Positions 27,919 through 36,298 of a DNA stretch of 64,000 bases are shown piece by piece. The translations under genes were made by a program, and so were the position numbers. Every line of letters begins with the position of its first letter. Within the stretch, counting starts at the first letter, position 1. Source of the stretch: Halioglobus sp. (lineage in GTDB: Bacteria > Pseudomonadota > Gammaproteobacteria > Pseudomonadales > Halieaceae); contig JAGRIE010000008.1 of NCBI GenBank assembly GCA_020443425.1, positions 1 through 64,000 of the forward strand, written 5' to 3'. The notes under the pieces are model-generated. The model ran no database searches and was not told where the DNA came from. It saw only the letters and a list, made by a program, of their open reading frames with translations.

Positions 27919-28929
27919 ATGGAAATAAAGGTCGGTGTTAACGGTCTGGGTCGAATGGGGCGCCTGGTCATGCGCGCCGCCTGGGCGATGGAGGGAGTGC
28001 GGTTTGTGCAGGTGAATGATCCGGGCGGTGACGCCAGGACGTTTGCACACCTGCTGAATTACGACTCGGTGCACGGGGTATGGGAACACCGGGCAGAGAG
28101 TGACGGGGAGGACCTGCTGGTAGCGGGCCAGCGTATTCCGTGCAGCGCAAACCCGCGGATAGAGGACACCGACTGGTCCTCCTGTGATGTCGTGATCGAG
28201 GCGTCCGGGAAATTCAAGAAAAAGGCGGTGCTGGAAGCCTATCTGCGCCAGGGTGTTAGCCGCGTGGTGGTGACCGCGCCGGTGAAGGAGGAGGGTGTGC
28301 TGGATATCGTGATGGGCGTGAACCACGACCGCTACCTGCCTGCGTCCCACACCATTGTCAGCGCAGCCTCGTGCACCACCAACTGCCTGGCGCCGGCGGT
28401 GAAAGTTATTCACGAGGGCCTTGGCATCAAACACGGCTCGATGACCACTATCCACGATATCACCAACACCCAGGTGATCCTGGATGCGCCGCATAAAGAC
28501 CTGCGCCGGGCGCGGGCCTGCGGTATGAGCCTGATACCGACAACCACCGGGTCGGCAACCGCAATCACGCATATCTTTCCCGAACTGCGCGGCAAGCTCA
28601 ACGGCCACGCCATCCGCGTCCCGCTGGCCAATGCCTCGCTGACGGATGTGGTGTTCGAGGTGGCGCGGGAGACTTCCATCGAGGAGGTCAACGGCCTGCT
28701 GCAGGCGGCCTCGCAGGGGGAGTTGAAAGGCATTCTCGGCTACGAGGAACAGCCGCTGGTGTCGATAGACTACCGTACCGACCCGCGCTCCTGTGTGGTC
28801 GATGCGCTCTCCACCATGGTGGTCAATGGCACCCAGGTGAAACTGTATCTGTGGTATGACAACGAATGGGGCTATGCCAATCGCACCGCAGAGATCATGC
28901 AGATGGTTGCGCAGCCGGACCGGGCCTGA
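27919..28929 (+). CDS. ArsJ-associated glyceraldehyde-3-phosphate dehydrogenase
   Basis: A 336-residue type I GAPDH. It has an NAD-binding start ([19 protein letters not shown]), the active-site [22 protein letters not shown] with catalytic Cys and downstream His, and [13 protein letters not shown]-like ending [16 protein letters not shown]. Immediate linkage to arsJ (8 bp) identifies it as the arsenic-operon paralogue. In that system it uses arsenate in place of phosphate to form 1-arseno-3-phosphoglycerate, which ArsJ exports. It departs from glycolytic GAPDHs in its N-terminal third, for example [22 protein letters not shown]. The assignment follows from established knowledge of the gapdh-arsJ pair. 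Confidence 0.88.
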
Positions 28930-28937
28930 GCTGTCGC

Positions 28938-30158
28938 ATGCTCTCCTCCCTGTCAGAGGGTGTGCGCCAGTACCTGCTGATCACCTTTAACTACTGGTCG
29001 TTCACGCTGACAGATGGCGCCCTGCGTATGCTGGTGGTACTGCACTTTCACCAGTTGGGCTACAGCCCGCTGGAAGTCGCCATGCTATTCCTGTTCTACG
29101 AGTTTTTCGGCGTGGTCACCAACCTGGTCGGCGGTTGGCTGGGTGCGCATATCGGTTTGAATGCCACGATGAATGCGGGGCTGCTGCTGCAAGTTGCGGC
29201 GCTATCCATGCTGCTAGTGCCTCAGGACATGCTCACGGTGGTGTGGGTAATGGCCGCGCAGGCACTCTCGGGTATCGCCAAGGACCTGAACAAGATGAGC
29301 GCCAAAAGCGCCATTAAAACGCTGGTGCCGGCGAACGCGCAGGGCACTCTGTACAAATGGGTGGCGATACTCACAGGGTCCAAGAACGCGCTGAAGGGGG
29401 TGGGTTTCTTCCTCGGTGGTGTGATGCTGTCCCTGTGGGGCTTTCGTGAGGCAGTACTGCTGATGGTGGCGGCGCTGGCAGCGGTCTGGGTGTTCAGCAT
29501 CATGAACCTGAAGAAAAGCCTGGGTAAGTCGGTCAACAAACCCAGGTTCAGCCAACTCTTCTCCAAGAGCCGGCCGGTGAACAGCCTCTCGGCGGCCAGG
29601 CTTTTCCTGTTTGCTGCCCGCGACGTCTGGTTTGTGGTCGCGCTGCCGGTCTACCTGACATCCGCCATGGGGTGGGATCACTGGGCCGTCGGCGCCTTCC
29701 TCGCGAGTTGGGTGATCGGGTACGGCTTTTTCCAGTCCATCGCGCCGAGGTTTACCGGCAGCGCTGCCGGCAAGGTCCCCGACGGGGTTGCCGCCTTCCG
29801 GTGGGCGGTCGCGCTGTCGCTCGTACCGGCGGCTATTGCGCTGGCGATGGCACAGGGTGTCGGGGCGGACGCCAGCCTGCTGCTGGGGTTGATGGTGTTC
29901 GGTATCCTGTTCGCGGTGAACTCCGCGCTGCACAGCTTCCTGATTGTCAGCTACGCGCGGGAGGAGGGGGTTTCGCTGGATGTGGGATTCTATTACATGG
30001 CGAATGCCATGGGACGACTGCTGGGGACGGTACTGTCGGGCTGGGTCTACCAGACCTGGGGTATAGGCAGTTGCCTGTGGATCTCCAGTGTGCTGATTGC
30101 CCTGTCGGCGATAGTCGCCCTGTCACTGCCCCGGGGGAGTGCTGCGACGGCGGTGTAA
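28938..30158 (+). CDS. arsJ: ArsJ organoarsenical efflux MFS permease
   Basis: A 406-residue 12-helix major facilitator. The N-terminus VRQYLLITFNYWSFTLTDGALRMLVVLHFHQLGYSPLEVAMLFLFYEFFGVVTNLVGGWLGAHIGL is characteristic of ArsJ. The central loop has KDLNKMSAKSAIK and SKNALKGVGFFLGGVML. It expels 1-arseno-3-phosphoglycerate made by the adjacent GAPDH; the product hydrolyses outside to arsenate. The gene starts 8 bp after gapdh. No arsB or acr3 arsenite exporter is visible in the window, so arsenite made by ArsC must leave by a pump coded elsewhere. Confidence 0.9.
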   Translation: MLSSLSEGVRQYLLITFNYWSFTLTDGALRMLVVLHFHQLGYSPLEVAMLFLFYEFFGVVTNLVGGWLGAHIGLNATMNAGLLLQVAALSMLLVPQDMLTVVWVMAAQALSGIAKDLNKMSAKSAIKTLVPANAQGTLYKWVAILTGSKNALKGVGFFLGGVMLSLWGFREAVLLMVAALAAVWVFSIMNLKKSLGKSVNKPRFSQLFSKSRPVNSLSAARLFLFAARDVWFVVALPVYLTSAMGWDHWAVGAFLASWVIGYGFFQSIAPRFTGSAAGKVPDGVAAFRWAVALSLVPAAIALAMAQGVGADASLLLGLMVFGILFAVNSALHSFLIVSYAREEGVSLDVGFYYMANAMGRLLGTVLSGWVYQTWGIGSCLWISSVLIALSAIVALSLPRGSAATAV

Positions 30159-30380: not shown

Positions 30381-30700
30381 AAGCGGACCTGCTGGGTTGG
30401 CGGGTGATCGGCCTATAATAACATCTGATTAACATATTGTGATAACTACATTTAAATGGTCGGCGTGAGTCCAGTCGCGACGACCGCCCCGGCAACGGTG
30501 GTGTGAGCGGACAGCCTGAGCAACCGGTTGCATCCCGTGGAGCGGACCGGCTGCGGCTATGGAAACTTTGGCGCCCCTGTGTTAACAAGGTCCGCAGTGG
30601 TTCGTTTTCGGTACACAGCTGGAACGAGCCGAGTCTGCGAGCGCAGTAACCTTCAACAGCGCGGCGGCCTGCGGGGTGCCGGGTGCCAGGGAGTGAGTCG

Positions 30701-32293
30701 GTGTCCCCAGATATACAGAGCCAACAGGTGCTTATCCAGGCGTTATGCCGGCCGTCGGTCTTCCCGCATGCCACCGATGACCTGACCTTGCTGGAAACCC
30801 ATATCTCCTGGGTGATCCTGTGCGGCGACTATGCCTATAAAATCAAGAAAGCACTCGATCTGGGGTTTCTGGACTGCTCCACGCTGGAGCGGCGCAAGCT
30901 GTTTTGTGAAGAGGAGTTGCGACTCAATCGCAGGCTCGCACCTGACCTGTATCTGGAGGTGGTGCCGATTACCGGGACAGTGGCGCAGCCCAGCCTGGCA
31001 GGACGGGGTGCGGCGCTGGAATATGCGGTCAAGATGCGGCGCTTCCCGTCGTCAGCGCTGCTGAGTGACCTGGTCGATGACGGCCGCCTCGGGGCCGGGC
31101 ACATCGACCAGCTGGCCGCTCAGATTGCCAGTTTTCACCAGCGCATTGCCGCGTCGGGAGATGACACCTTGTACGGGACCCCCGGGCATGTCCACGCGCC
31201 CGCCCTGGAAAACTTCAGCCAGATTCGCGAGCGTATCGATGAGCCGCGTCACCTGGAGACGGTGGAGTGCTTGCACACATGGACAGAGCAGGAATACCAG
31301 CGCTGCGCCCCGGTGTTCGAACAGCGTAAACGCCAGGGTTTTATCCGCGAGTGCCACGGCGATATGCATCTGGGCAATATGGTGATGATAGCGGATGCGC
31401 CGGTTATTTTTGACGGTATTGAATTCAACCCGGAGTTGTACTGGATCGACGTGATGAGTGAGATTGCGTTCCTGTGCATGGATCTGGAACACCATGGGCG
31501 TCCTGACTACGCCAACCGGTTCCTGAACGCCTATCTTGAGCTCACCGGCGATTATGAGGGCGTGCAGGTCTACCGCTACTATCTGGTATACCGCGCTATT
31601 GTGCGGGCCAAAGTGGCCAGCATCCGGGTCGAGCAGGTGGCCGACACTGAAACGCCCTCTGCGTCGCGGCATGAATTCGACCAGTATTTGCAGCTCGCCC
31701 TGCAGTACTCACGGGGCCGGGCTCCGGTACTGCTGATCACGCACGGTCTGTCCGGTAGTGGCAAGTCGACGCTGTCAGCGCGGCTCGCTGGGCAAATGGG
31801 GGCGATACGCATCCGCTCGGACCGCGAGCGACAGCGACTATTGGGTCGGGGCAGGCGCGACGGGCAGGCGGCTGGCATCAATGCGGGTGTCTATTCGGAG
31901 GATGCGACGGCGCAGACCTACGCCGTCCTTGAACAGCTGGCGGAGAGCGTGCTCAGCGCCGGCTGTCCGGTGATTGTCGATGCGACTTTTCTGTCGCGCG
32001 CACAGAGGGAGCCATTCAGGCGGTTGGCAGCGCGACTTGGCGTGCCGCTGCGGGTGTTGTCCTTCCAGGCAGAGCCCGAGGTGTTGAGGCAGCGCGTGGT
32101 GGCGCGGGATGCATCGGGGCGCGACATCTCCGAGGCAGACCTGGGTGTGCTTGAGTACCAGCTGCAGCATTACGAAGGGCTGGACGCCGATGAAGCCAGT
32201 GAGGTGGTTGTTATCGATACACAGCGCCCTTGCAGCGGCCAGGATATGGCCGCGCAACTCAAGCACTCACTGCCTGAAGTAACGACTCGTTGA
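30701..32293 (+). CDS. APH-like domain fused to P-loop (zeta/gluconokinase-like) kinase
   Basis: A 530-residue two-domain protein from GTG 30701, with AGGGAG upstream; another GTG six codons earlier is possible. Residues 1 to about 330 are an aminoglycoside-phosphotransferase-like kinase domain with Brenner-type CHGDMHLGNMV and the metal-binding IFDGIEFN. The C-terminal 190 residues are an AAA_33/gluconate-kinase-like P-loop domain with ITHGLSGSGKSTLSARLA, the base-recognition/lid-like RIRSDRERQRL, and VDATFLSRAQREPFRRLA. This domain pair (COG2187+COG0645) is common in Proteobacteria, but its substrates are unknown. Antibiotic resistance should not be inferred from the APH-like label. Confidence 0.85.
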   Translation: MSPDIQSQQVLIQALCRPSVFPHATDDLTLLETHISWVILCGDYAYKIKKALDLGFLDCSTLERRKLFCEEELRLNRRLAPDLYLEVVPITGTVAQPSLAGRGAALEYAVKMRRFPSSALLSDLVDDGRLGAGHIDQLAAQIASFHQRIAASGDDTLYGTPGHVHAPALENFSQIRERIDEPRHLETVECLHTWTEQEYQRCAPVFEQRKRQGFIRECHGDMHLGNMVMIADAPVIFDGIEFNPELYWIDVMSEIAFLCMDLEHHGRPDYANRFLNAYLELTGDYEGVQVYRYYLVYRAIVRAKVASIRVEQVADTETPSASRHEFDQYLQLALQYSRGRAPVLLITHGLSGSGKSTLSARLAGQMGAIRIRSDRERQRLLGRGRRDGQAAGINAGVYSEDATAQTYAVLEQLAESVLSAGCPVIVDATFLSRAQREPFRRLAARLGVPLRVLSFQAEPEVLRQRVVARDASGRDISEADLGVLEYQLQHYEGLDADEASEVVVIDTQRPCSGQDMAAQLKHSLPEVTTR

Positions 32294-33578: not shown

Positions 33579-34529
33579 CTAACAGGTCGGCTTCAGGGTC
33601 CTGGTGACCAGCAGCAGGCCGGCATCGCGGGGGTCACGCGTGATGGTGTAGCCCTGAGCCTGGGCAAGTTTGTGCATCGCCTTATTGTCCCGCAGCATCA
33701 GGCCTTGCAGGCGTTTTATGCCCGCAATGGCCGCCGCCGTTGTGAGCCCTCTGAGCAGTTGTGTTGCGATGCCGCAGCCCTGCCATGCATCCGCCACTAC
33801 CACTGCGAACTCGGCTGTCCCCGCTGTTTCAGTCGGCATATAGCGGGCGACGCCAATCTGCTGTTCGCTGTCGCCGTCGCCAACCGTGGCGATAAAGGCG
33901 CAGCTTCTGGGGTAGTCGGGATGCGTAAACGCGTTCATCAATGCGGGTGGCAGCTGTTTGATATTCAGGAAAAAACGCGAGTGCTTCGATTGCAGCGATA
34001 AACCGTCAATGAAGGCTTTCTCCAGCGGTTCGTCATCCGGGCGCATCACGCGGAACGTGACTGGCGTTCCGTTGTAGAGTTGCCGGGTGTCGGGTGGCGG
34101 CGCGGTTGCGTCCTCCCCGGCAAGCGGCAGCAGCTCGCGCAGTCTCGCCAGCAGGAAGCCGCCCATCAGCGGTCTTGCGAGCACTTCCGTCGCGCCCGCC
34201 CGCAGCGCCTCGGCGCGAAAATCCGCACCGGGGTCATCGCTCAGGACCACCACGGCGAGGCACAAGCCCTGCCGGTGCAGCTCGCGTACCATGGCCAGGC
34301 TGTCCATGTCGGGCAGGTTATCGGTGACCAGTACACAGCCGCCCAACGACGCTGGGTTAGCGCAGGCCTGCAGGAACCCTGTGGCGCTGGCGTAGGCGCG
34401 AACCTCAATGCCGTAGTGACCCAGCAGCGTCGCAAGTGCTTGTGCAGTGCAGGGGTCGGGGCCCACGATATAAACACAGTGTGTGTCGCGCTTCTCCGTG
34501 CCAGCGGGGGGCGCGCCGGTATTAGTCAT
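33579..34529 (-). CDS. Receiver-like domain fused to Pat-type GNAT acetyltransferase
   Basis: A 316-residue protein. Residues 16-135 form a CheY-like receiver domain: VYIVGPDP, phosphoacceptor-position Asp70 in LVTDNLPDMDS, VVVLSDDP, and EVLARPLMGG where the conserved Lys is Arg119. The usual acidic pair near the N-terminus is reduced to GPD. Residues 157-316 form a GNAT domain: FRVMRPDDEPLEKAFIDGLSLQSKHSRFF, HPDYPRSCAFIATV, and acetyl-CoA loop WQGCGIATQLL. This matches the C-terminal domain of protein-lysine acetyltransferases of the Pat/PatZ type. It overlaps the upstream gene by 8 nt. I infer a signal-gated protein acetyltransferase. Whether the receiver can be phosphorylated is uncertain because the lysine is replaced. 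Confidence 0.8.
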   Translation of the reverse strand: MTNTGAPPAGTEKRDTHCVYIVGPDPCTAQALATLLGHYGIEVRAYASATGFLQACANPASLGGCVLVTDNLPDMDSLAMVRELHRQGLCLAVVVLSDDPGADFRAEALRAGATEVLARPLMGGFLLARLRELLPLAGEDATAPPPDTRQLYNGTPVTFRVMRPDDEPLEKAFIDGLSLQSKHSRFFLNIKQLPPALMNAFTHPDYPRSCAFIATVGDGDSEQQIGVARYMPTETAGTAEFAVVVADAWQGCGIATQLLRGLTTAAAIAGIKRLQGLMLRDNKAMHKLAQAQGYTITRDPRDAGLLLVTRTLKPTC

Positions 34530-35127
34530 GTCCGGGCTCAGGGTCTGGTTGCCGCACGGAGGAGCGCATCACCTTCACGTGCTCGACGTACCCCTCTGAC
34601 TCTCCGTAGCGAGCGAAACCGGCATACCGCTTATGCGGGTTGACAACTTTTCGCGCGTGTTTGATCGGGCACCAGTACTGCTCAGTGCGTGCGACAATCT
34701 CACGGCTGTAGGTGAGCAGGCCGCTGACATAGCCGCAGTAGACGCAGTTGATTTTCTCGATTATGTTCAGATAGGACAGGTGGTGCCGGTCGATAACAAT
34801 GTAGTCGCTGCGGCGCACCCTCGGGATTCGGTACAGCCCGAAGCAGAGGTATTGATAGGCGGACAGCGTGATGTCCAGCAGCGCAAACGGTATGATCATA
34901 AAGTAGATCACGGGCGCGCTGGCTACATTGCGCAACTCGCTTTCCCCCAGCCACTGGATGATGCCGGTTTTTACACGTCGATGGGCTCGCTTCACCGCCT
35001 TTTCAAAGCGAATTTTAGTGCCGTCGATACTGTAGGACAGGTTTTCCTCGTGTTGTTTAAGCAACTTTGCCAGCTCTTCTTCACGCTGGCGTATTTCCTC
35101 CAGTAAGTCATTTATCTTTTTGTTCAT
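34522..35127 (-). CDS. Coiled-coil membrane protein of unknown function
   Basis: A 201-residue protein from MNKKINDLLEEIRQREEELAKLLKQHEENL, a strongly charged heptad-like coiled coil (about residues 1-30). A basic stretch (KAVKRAHRRVKTG) and one long hydrophobic segment (VIYFMIIPFALLDITLSAYQYLCFGLY) follow. The C-terminal part is aromatic- and cysteine-containing (IEKINCVYCGYVSGLLTYSREIVARTEQYWCPIKHARK). The two cysteine sites (CVYC, WC) could bind metal. GGAG precedes ATG 35127 at the right distance; the longer frame upstream overlaps yhhJ and is unlikely. The end overlaps the receiver-GNAT gene by 8 nt, and the gene follows the yhhJ-like permease gene by 46 bp. No function is known. Confidence 0.7.
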   Translation of the reverse strand: MNKKINDLLEEIRQREEELAKLLKQHEENLSYSIDGTKIRFEKAVKRAHRRVKTGIIQWLGESELRNVASAPVIYFMIIPFALLDITLSAYQYLCFGLYRIPRVRRSDYIVIDRHHLSYLNIIEKINCVYCGYVSGLLTYSREIVARTEQYWCPIKHARKVVNPHKRYAGFARYGESEGYVEHVKVMRSSVRQPDPEPGHD

Positions 35128-35173
35128 CGCTGTCTCCATGGAGGCGTGAATGTCGGGACCTGGGTATTGCGGC

Positions 35174-36298
35174 CTATTTGCTGATGGTGATGGATCGCCG
35201 AAACAGGATGAGGCTGGCGGTAAAAAAGATTGAGCCCAGGCCGACAATGGTCAGGAGCTGCGGCCAGACAATACCCAGGTTTGCTCCGCGGAATATCACT
35301 GCCTGGGCAAACGCCATATAGTGGCGCGAGGGTAGGAACCAGGTCAACGGTTGAATGACCTCAGGCTGGCTTTCGATGGGTGTCATGCCGCCGGACAGCA
35401 GCATCATGGGGATGATGACCATCATCATCAGCAAGGCGAACTGCGCCATGGTGCGGGCGATTGTGCCGAGAAAAATGCCGATAGCGGCTGCTGCGAACAA
35501 GTAGAGAGTGGTGCCGACCAGCAGCAGCAGCCTGGAGCCGGCAATCGGGACGTCAAGCAGGCCCTCGACAAGCAGCCACATGGACAGGGAGAAAGTGGTG
35601 AGAATGATCACGCCATTGGCCCACACTTTGGACATGACGATCTGGAACGACGTCAGCGGCATCACCAGTAAATGCTCGATGGTACCGTGTTCGCGCTCGC
35701 GCAGCAGTGCTGCGCCGGTCAGTATAATGGTCAGTATCGTCAGGTTGTCCAACAGCGCACTGACAGCGCTGAACCAGCTGCCGGTTCCGTTGGGGTTGAA
35801 GGCGCGCCGCTGTACCAGTATGACCGGGTAGGCAGTACTTTCATTGGCACGACTTGCAAAATAGTCCACCTCGTTGCGGATGATATTCTGGATATAACTG
35901 CTGCCGAGACTGGCCTGGGTTACCGCTGTTGCGTCGATATCGATCTGCACTGTGGGCTGGCGTCCTTCGCGGATATCCCGTTCAAAGCCCGGCGGTATCA
36001 CCACCACAAACATGAACCGGTCCTGGTTCATAGCCTCATCGACCTCGGTCGATGAAATCAGGTGCGGTTCCTTGAAATAAGGTGGAAAGAAGGCATTGGC
36101 GACAGCGCGTGAAAGGTTCGAGTGATCTTCGTCGACAATGGCAATCGAGGCGTTGTTGACTGATTCACTGATGGCTACCGAGCGTGCATAGATCTGGAAA
36201 CTGAAGGCCCAGACAATGAGCGCAACCATGACGGTATCCAGCAGGACACTGCGCAGCTCCTTGGTGCCCAACCAGAATATATTGGCCCATCCCCACAC
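35174..36298 (-). CDS. yhhJ: ABC-2 type permease, YhhJ-like
   Basis: A 374-residue ABC-2 permease. It has an N-terminal helix after WLGTKELRSVLLDTVMVALIVWAFSFQIYA, a large periplasmic domain, and five C-terminal helices including LREREHGTIEHLLVMPLTSFQIVMSKVWANG, the conserved ABC-2 coupling region. In Escherichia coli yhiI-rbbA-yhhJ encode HlyD-type adaptor, ATPase/permease and permease. The same order occurs here. It begins 3 bp after rbbA. Together the set should form a tripartite exporter in the inner membrane; the exported substrate is unknown. Confidence 0.88.
   Translation of the reverse strand: MWGWANIFWLGTKELRSVLLDTVMVALIVWAFSFQIYARSVAISESVNNASIAIVDEDHSNLSRAVANAFFPPYFKEPHLISSTEVDEAMNQDRFMFVVVIPPGFERDIREGRQPTVQIDIDATAVTQASLGSSYIQNIIRNEVDYFASRANESTAYPVILVQRRAFNPNGTGSWFSAVSALLDNLTILTIILTGAALLREREHGTIEHLLVMPLTSFQIVMSKVWANGVIILTTFSLSMWLLVEGLLDVPIAGSRLLLLVGTTLYLFAAAAIGIFLGTIARTMAQFALLMMMVIIPMMLLSGGMTPIESQPEVIQPLTWFLPSRHYMAFAQAVIFRGANLGIVWPQLLTIVGLGSIFFTASLILFRRSITISK

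Follow-up and report, generated by a model that had tools for sequence, protein, structure and literature searches.

A receiver-fold domain without its phospho-aspartate paired with a Pat-type GNAT domain in a small bacterial protein family

We examined a 64,000-nucleotide stretch of DNA from a Halioglobus-related bacterium (hereafter the window) and found a gene, REC-GNAT, whose product combines two ordinary folds in an unusual pairing: an N-terminal receiver fold and a C-terminal Pat-type GNAT domain (Table 1). At a probability of roughly 60%, we read REC-GNAT as a Pat-type N-epsilon-lysine acetyltransferase regulated by its N-terminal aspartate-less receiver and not by Asp phosphorylation, with acetyl-CoA synthetase as the most likely target. 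Both folds, the conserved GNAT residues, the degenerate pocket and the single GNAT clade were computed; the rest we infer. An earlier note on this DNA had proposed a receiver and a Pat-type GNAT in one protein. This was borne out, and the architecture recurs as a small family for which we found no description.

Table 1. Position of the REC-GNAT gene, its parts and associated features (window coordinates unless another locus is given).
Feature	Position	Strand	Basis or remark
REC-GNAT gene, 316 aa (protein P0001)	33579..34529	(-)	
Receiver-fold domain, residues 18-134, aspartate-less	34128..34478	(-)	Pfam, predicted fold and alignment
Thr69 (phospho-Asp column) and Asp70 (next residue)	34320..34325	(-)	alignment
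Linker, residues 135-149	34083..34127	(-)	mean pLDDT 71 (131-140) and 75 (141-150)
Pat-type GNAT domain, residues 150-312	33594..34082	(-)	Pfam, sequence and fold matches
Glu240, aligned to E. coli PatZ E809 and Rv0998 E235	33810..33812	(-)	alignment
Acetyl-CoA loop Q250-G-C-G-I-A255 (QxxGxA)	33765..33782	(-)	sequence motif
Upstream ORF, 241 aa or shorter, start codon uncertain	34522..35247	(-)	no Pfam match above cutoff
L037 cluster	L037 559-6900 and L184	one strand	one genome only

Domain composition of REC-GNAT

Pfam matches of REC-GNAT at E-values up to 1 comprised Response_reg, GNAT models and a sub-threshold KaiA_N, and no cAMP-, ACT- or NADP-binding regulatory domain was among them. The C-terminal domain is a Pat-type GNAT with conserved catalytic and acetyl-CoA residues. 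Sequence and fold comparisons alike gave Pat enzymes as its nearest solved structures, and in both searches these ranked above other GNATs; the top fold match was S. lividans Pat with the acetyl-CoA synthetase C-terminal domain. Residues D166, G226, R229, E240 and N282 were invariant in the 40-row GNAT alignment (A3, which included 30 of the 62 unfused loci described below; L058 was omitted, as its stretch holds a stop). The QxxGxA stretch at Q250-A255 we take to be the acetyl-CoA loop motif. The protein thus presents the C-terminal Pat-type GNAT, the catalytic Glu (E240) and the acetyl-CoA loop (Q250xxGxA) of a type III (class I-beta) Pat, and since the GNAT site is conserved, acetyl-CoA chemistry is to be expected.

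REC-GNAT differs from the known Pat enzymes in what accompanies the GNAT. The cAMP-regulated type III (class I-beta) enzymes Rv0998 and MSMEG_5458 have a cyclic-nucleotide-binding domain in place of the receiver fold, while E. coli PatZ and other type I Pat enzymes, of about 880 aa, carry an NDP-forming acyl-CoA synthetase part that the Pfam scan did not find in the 316 aa of REC-GNAT. The S. lividans Pat GNAT domain structures (4u5y, 4nxy) have no receiver. In the available part of PMC8556138, PatZ E809 and MSMEG_5458 E234 are discussed as a possible catalytic base, with other mechanisms contributing.

The predicted structure and fold search of the N-terminal domain gave a (beta-alpha)5 receiver fold. 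The earlier note had allowed that the first 135 residues might instead be a degenerate NAD-binding or Acs-like fold, and the Pfam scores give this some room: Response_reg lay only slightly above cutoff in the window protein and was above it in six of nine relatives, the other three falling below (25.7, 19.3 and 23.2 bits). Profile and fold searches nevertheless both led to receivers, which contradicts that idea and leaves it hardly credible. We infer that this domain has a regulatory role.

The phosphorylation pocket of the receiver is degenerate. In an alignment with seven canonical receivers, of which the window's genome supplied five and relatives two, both MAFFT modes placed Thr69, ungapped, in the phospho-Asp column, with Asp70 one residue further; the earlier note had taken Asp70 to be in place. 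One of four HMMER alignments dissents and, by opening one gap, brings Asp70 into register with the Asp of FixJ, which counts against the main reading. As the note had remarked, Arg119 occupies the Lys column; the acidic Mg2+ pair is G23/P24, and the switch residue Ser97 is present. Apart from the dissenting alignment, the domain is therefore an aspartate-less receiver (ALR), with a receiver fold and no phospho-Asp.

Similar patterns were observed across the ten family receivers. The phospho-Asp column read T,E,E,D,D,Q,A,T,E,E, with Asp absent in 8/10 and Glu present in 4/10; the acidic pair read G,D,D,D,D,A,D,D,D,D at its first position and P,P,P,S,P,P,A,G,P,P at its second, the latter being acidic in none of the ten. 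The Thr/Ser column (S,T,G,A,T,T,C,C,A,G) varied, and Lys was absent from its column in seven members (R,K,R,R,R,R,K,K,R,R). Two of the ten, L039 and L040, have the Asp in register, which also goes against the main reading; judging by these residues, phosphorylation could survive in that part of the family.

Receivers whose phospho-Asp is replaced have been described as ALRs, where Glu is the commonest replacement (26%), as it is in the REC-GNAT family (available text of PMC4395418). One of the ALRs named there, 3KTO, was a sequence match of the REC-GNAT family profile, and the words 'GNAT' and 'acetyltransferase' are absent from the available main text of that paper.

The receiver was whole in all ten members and diverged faster than the GNAT: mean pairwise identity among eight members was 35% against 55%, lower for the receiver in 28 of 28 pairs, a point against the main reading. 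Because dS was saturated in most pairs, pN and pS were used. In five pairs the receiver pN (0.23-0.40) was well below pS (0.73-0.93, near saturation), which indicates that the receiver is kept.

Distribution and phylogeny of the family

A protein search recovered the full receiver and GNAT architecture in 8 of 140 genomes of the bacterial family, the window's genome included. A scan of named contigs gave 71 loci; it relied on a pair of peptide patterns taken from the GNAT of this family and finds close kin only. The loci were nine with the full architecture (L037-L045) and 62 unfused. Judged by length, seven of the nine coincided with contigs of the protein search, and two were new (L039 in a gamma MAG and L041 in a Myxococcota-labelled MAG). 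Named members include records of Pseudohalioglobus lutimaris, P. sediminis and Halioglobus japonicus, and the nearest relative, L037 in genome G043, has 49% identity to the window protein. We rejected L039 as a 717-aa protein: the extra length is an upstream extension, and Pfam found only the receiver and the GNAT, at its end.

In a tree of 49 GNAT domains (a quick search, no bootstrap), the ten fused members formed one side of a branch with SH-aLRT 96. The other 39 rows were unfused (38 of the 62 unfused loci plus L015; L089 was dropped, as its stretch holds a stop), and the neighbours of the fused clade were two stand-alone GNATs, L046 and L015. This topology fits a putative single fusion of a receiver to a stand-alone Pat GNAT.

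No independent receiver-Pat fusion and no member outside the bacterial family was seen in overlapping samples of the order (390 genomes), class (369) and phylum (398), searched at 1e-30, 1e-40 and 1e-25 with up to 5 or 6 candidates scored in each genome. Among the candidates scored, which in the order and class samples were judged by profile range and frame length only, G000 and G030 alone matched over the receiver in the order sample; in the class sample G000 alone matched at full length, and the G840 match, in a frame of 900 aa, began at profile position 66. G000 was again the only one among those scored in the phylum sample. There, Pfam assigned seven of the eight non-window hits (frames of 268-677 aa) to GNAT alone (three), AcetylCoA_hydro and GNAT (three) and ATP-grasp and GNAT (one); the eighth was G958 (633 aa), and for shorter frames, among them ones of 248 and 241 aa, length served as the criterion. 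A Pat-like GNAT was observed at the C-terminus of the acetyl-CoA hydrolase/transferase proteins L203, L204 and L205 (AcetylCoA_hydro and AcetylCoA_hyd_C above cutoff), another pairing of an acyl-CoA enzyme with a GNAT.

Gene neighbourhoods and candidate targets

In the window, the stop of the upstream ORF overlaps the REC-GNAT start by 8 bases; this ORF follows an ABC-2 transporter gene, and a ZIP transporter gene lies downstream of REC-GNAT. No tblastn match (1e-10) to the upstream ORF turned up in the nine relatives' loci, nor were the window neighbours of REC-GNAT found there. Elsewhere in the window, a 536-aa protein (30683-32293, (+)) joins an APH-like N-terminal half, whose score is at the cutoff, to a C-terminal half of the AAA_33 kinase type. 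The genes at 27919-30155 (+), an ArsJ-associated GAPDH (NF033735, 548 bits, cutoff 450) followed by ArsJ (NF033734, 608 bits, cutoff 400), are, by these model scores, a predicted arsenate detoxification pair, which ArsR-like and ArsC-like ORFs, recognised by eye, adjoin.

A shared neighbourhood was found only in three close Pseudohalioglobus-type loci (L038, L044 and L045), which have an FKBP-type isomerase upstream, a SIR2 gene about 2-6 kb downstream of REC-GNAT and differing genes between; other ORFs shared among the nine relatives' loci were scattered pairs. A conserved operon was rejected, as the neighbourhood is not kept beyond these three loci, and this weighs against the main reading. 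In five same-genus genomes without REC-GNAT, no FKBP match occurred within 16-17 kb around SIR2, and one such genome (G032) has two genes of the L045 upstream block near its SIR2. The link between the sirtuin and REC-GNAT genes in the three loci is suggestive, and shared descent explains it as well. The SIR2 genes of the window's genome are on contigs other than that of REC-GNAT.

The L037 locus of G043 carries, on one strand, genes for a CBS protein, HSP20, PEP synthase, acetate kinase, a FixL-like kinase (CHASE, PAS, HisKA and HATPase domains), a FixJ-like regulator, a 132-aa receiver, REC-GNAT and a member of the ATP-synthase alpha/beta family. The FixL and FixJ models scored under their equivalog cutoffs. 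Both the 132-aa receiver and the L037 REC-GNAT have Glu at the phospho-Asp column; with these two aspartate-less receivers, the cluster resembles an energy-stress island. A receiver tree placed the 132-aa receiver on the side of the fused receivers, with most forks weak and L007 a long-branch misfit. The window's genome also has a cluster of FixL/FixJ-like genes, on contig C200, which was rejected as a different system.

AMP-forming acetyl-CoA synthetase was above its family cutoff in all eight REC-GNAT genomes, and in each it contained the motif PKTRSGK, whose lysine is presumably the Pat target. SIR2 was found in 7/8; no sirtuin was detected in G043 (96% complete), which has REC-GNAT, and this speaks against the main reading. 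A PatZ-sized protein was present in three of the eight, all g10 genomes. The other five, two of which are drafts (89% and 93% complete), had no PatZ-sized Succ_CoA_lig protein, with Succ_CoA_lig matches only in frames of 228-546 aa. Strict replacement of PatZ by REC-GNAT was rejected, since 3/8 genomes hold both.

Proposed regulation and its alternatives

In our main reading, the GNAT would transfer an acetyl group from acetyl-CoA to a lysine, most likely that of PKTRSGK in AMP-forming acetyl-CoA synthetase; plentiful acetyl-CoA would thereby shut the synthetase off, and sirtuins would reverse the acetylation. The receiver would act by its surface: it might dimerise, touch the GNAT, or bind a partner protein or a small ligand. 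This role would parallel that of the cAMP-, ACT- and NADP-binding domains in the type III enzymes already described. Where a member has Glu at the phospho-Asp site, its receiver may be locked in an active-like state.

The earlier note had suggested both acetylation directly under two-component control and phosphorylation-independent or modified switching. The latter gained strength from the out-of-register Asp and from the column lacking Asp in most members; for the same reasons, two-component control in the usual sense is unlikely for the window protein. A phospho-switch would have Asp70 as phosphoacceptor, on a beta3-alpha3 loop one residue shorter, with a histidine kinase or acetyl phosphate toggling the acetyltransferase. 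The gapped HMMER alignment agrees with this, as does the L037 locus, where genes for a FixL-like kinase, a FixJ-like regulator and a receiver precede REC-GNAT on its strand and the acetate kinase gene lies before these. However, the ungapped alignment puts Thr69 in the column, the one-residue gap recurs in no relative (that of L044 spans two residues and directly follows the column), all members lack the second Mg-binding acid and most lack the Lys, and in the L037 protein itself the column is occupied by Glu; we regard such a switch as quite improbable. Its faster divergence and degenerate pocket would also suit a receiver that is a relic for dimerisation or stability and carries no signal, and the stand-alone sisters L046 and L015 imply that the GNAT does not need a receiver as such; but the domain is whole in every member and its pN stayed well below pS in all five pairs compared, which makes this unlikely.

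A GNAT substrate cannot be read from sequence, as the available text of PMC8316039 says for PixB, and REC-GNAT might modify a small molecule, the N-terminus of a protein, or some protein besides acetyl-CoA synthetase. We find this unlikely, given that Pat enzymes top both the sequence and the fold searches and that the REC-GNAT genomes contain the acetyl-CoA synthetase target. A more speculative extension of the main reading, which we hold to be rather unlikely, is suggested by the G043 gene cluster with its acetate kinase: in Halieaceae-type bacteria the aspartate-less receiver might dock on, or compete for, a FixL/FixJ-type system. Shut-off of acetyl-CoA synthetase would then be tied to the two-component network with no phosphotransfer involved, and a signalling complex would govern protein acetylation, in the place of PatZ where PatZ is absent.

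Aspartate-less receivers have been studied mostly in DNA-binding regulators, and REC-GNAT offers an easy readout, Acs activity, for asking what such a receiver does. If the main reading is true, a receiver-type regulator would add a signalling-protein input to metabolic acetylation. Known regulated Pat enzymes, in the available parts of PMC6456759 and PMC8556138, rely on domains that bind cAMP, amino acids, NADP or acetyl-CoA to sense small metabolites, and PMC6456759 gives three kinds of regulatory domain fused to GNAT in prokaryotic KATs (ACT, cAMP-binding and NADP+-binding). The available portions of three acetyltransferase reviews (PMC6456759, PMC8556138, PMC11254643) neither name the architecture nor contain the word 'receiver'. 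We found no description of a receiver-GNAT fusion in the open-licence PMC literature as far as its text was available, including PMC3333781, PMC8316039, PMC6194562, PMC7824862, PMC7159879 and PMC6774946. The nearest signalling-domain analogue that we met is PixB of M. xanthus (PilZ-PilZ-GNAT), which likewise fuses a signalling domain to a GNAT, with c-di-GMP-binding domains rather than a receiver and, in the text available, no assigned substrate (PMC8316039).
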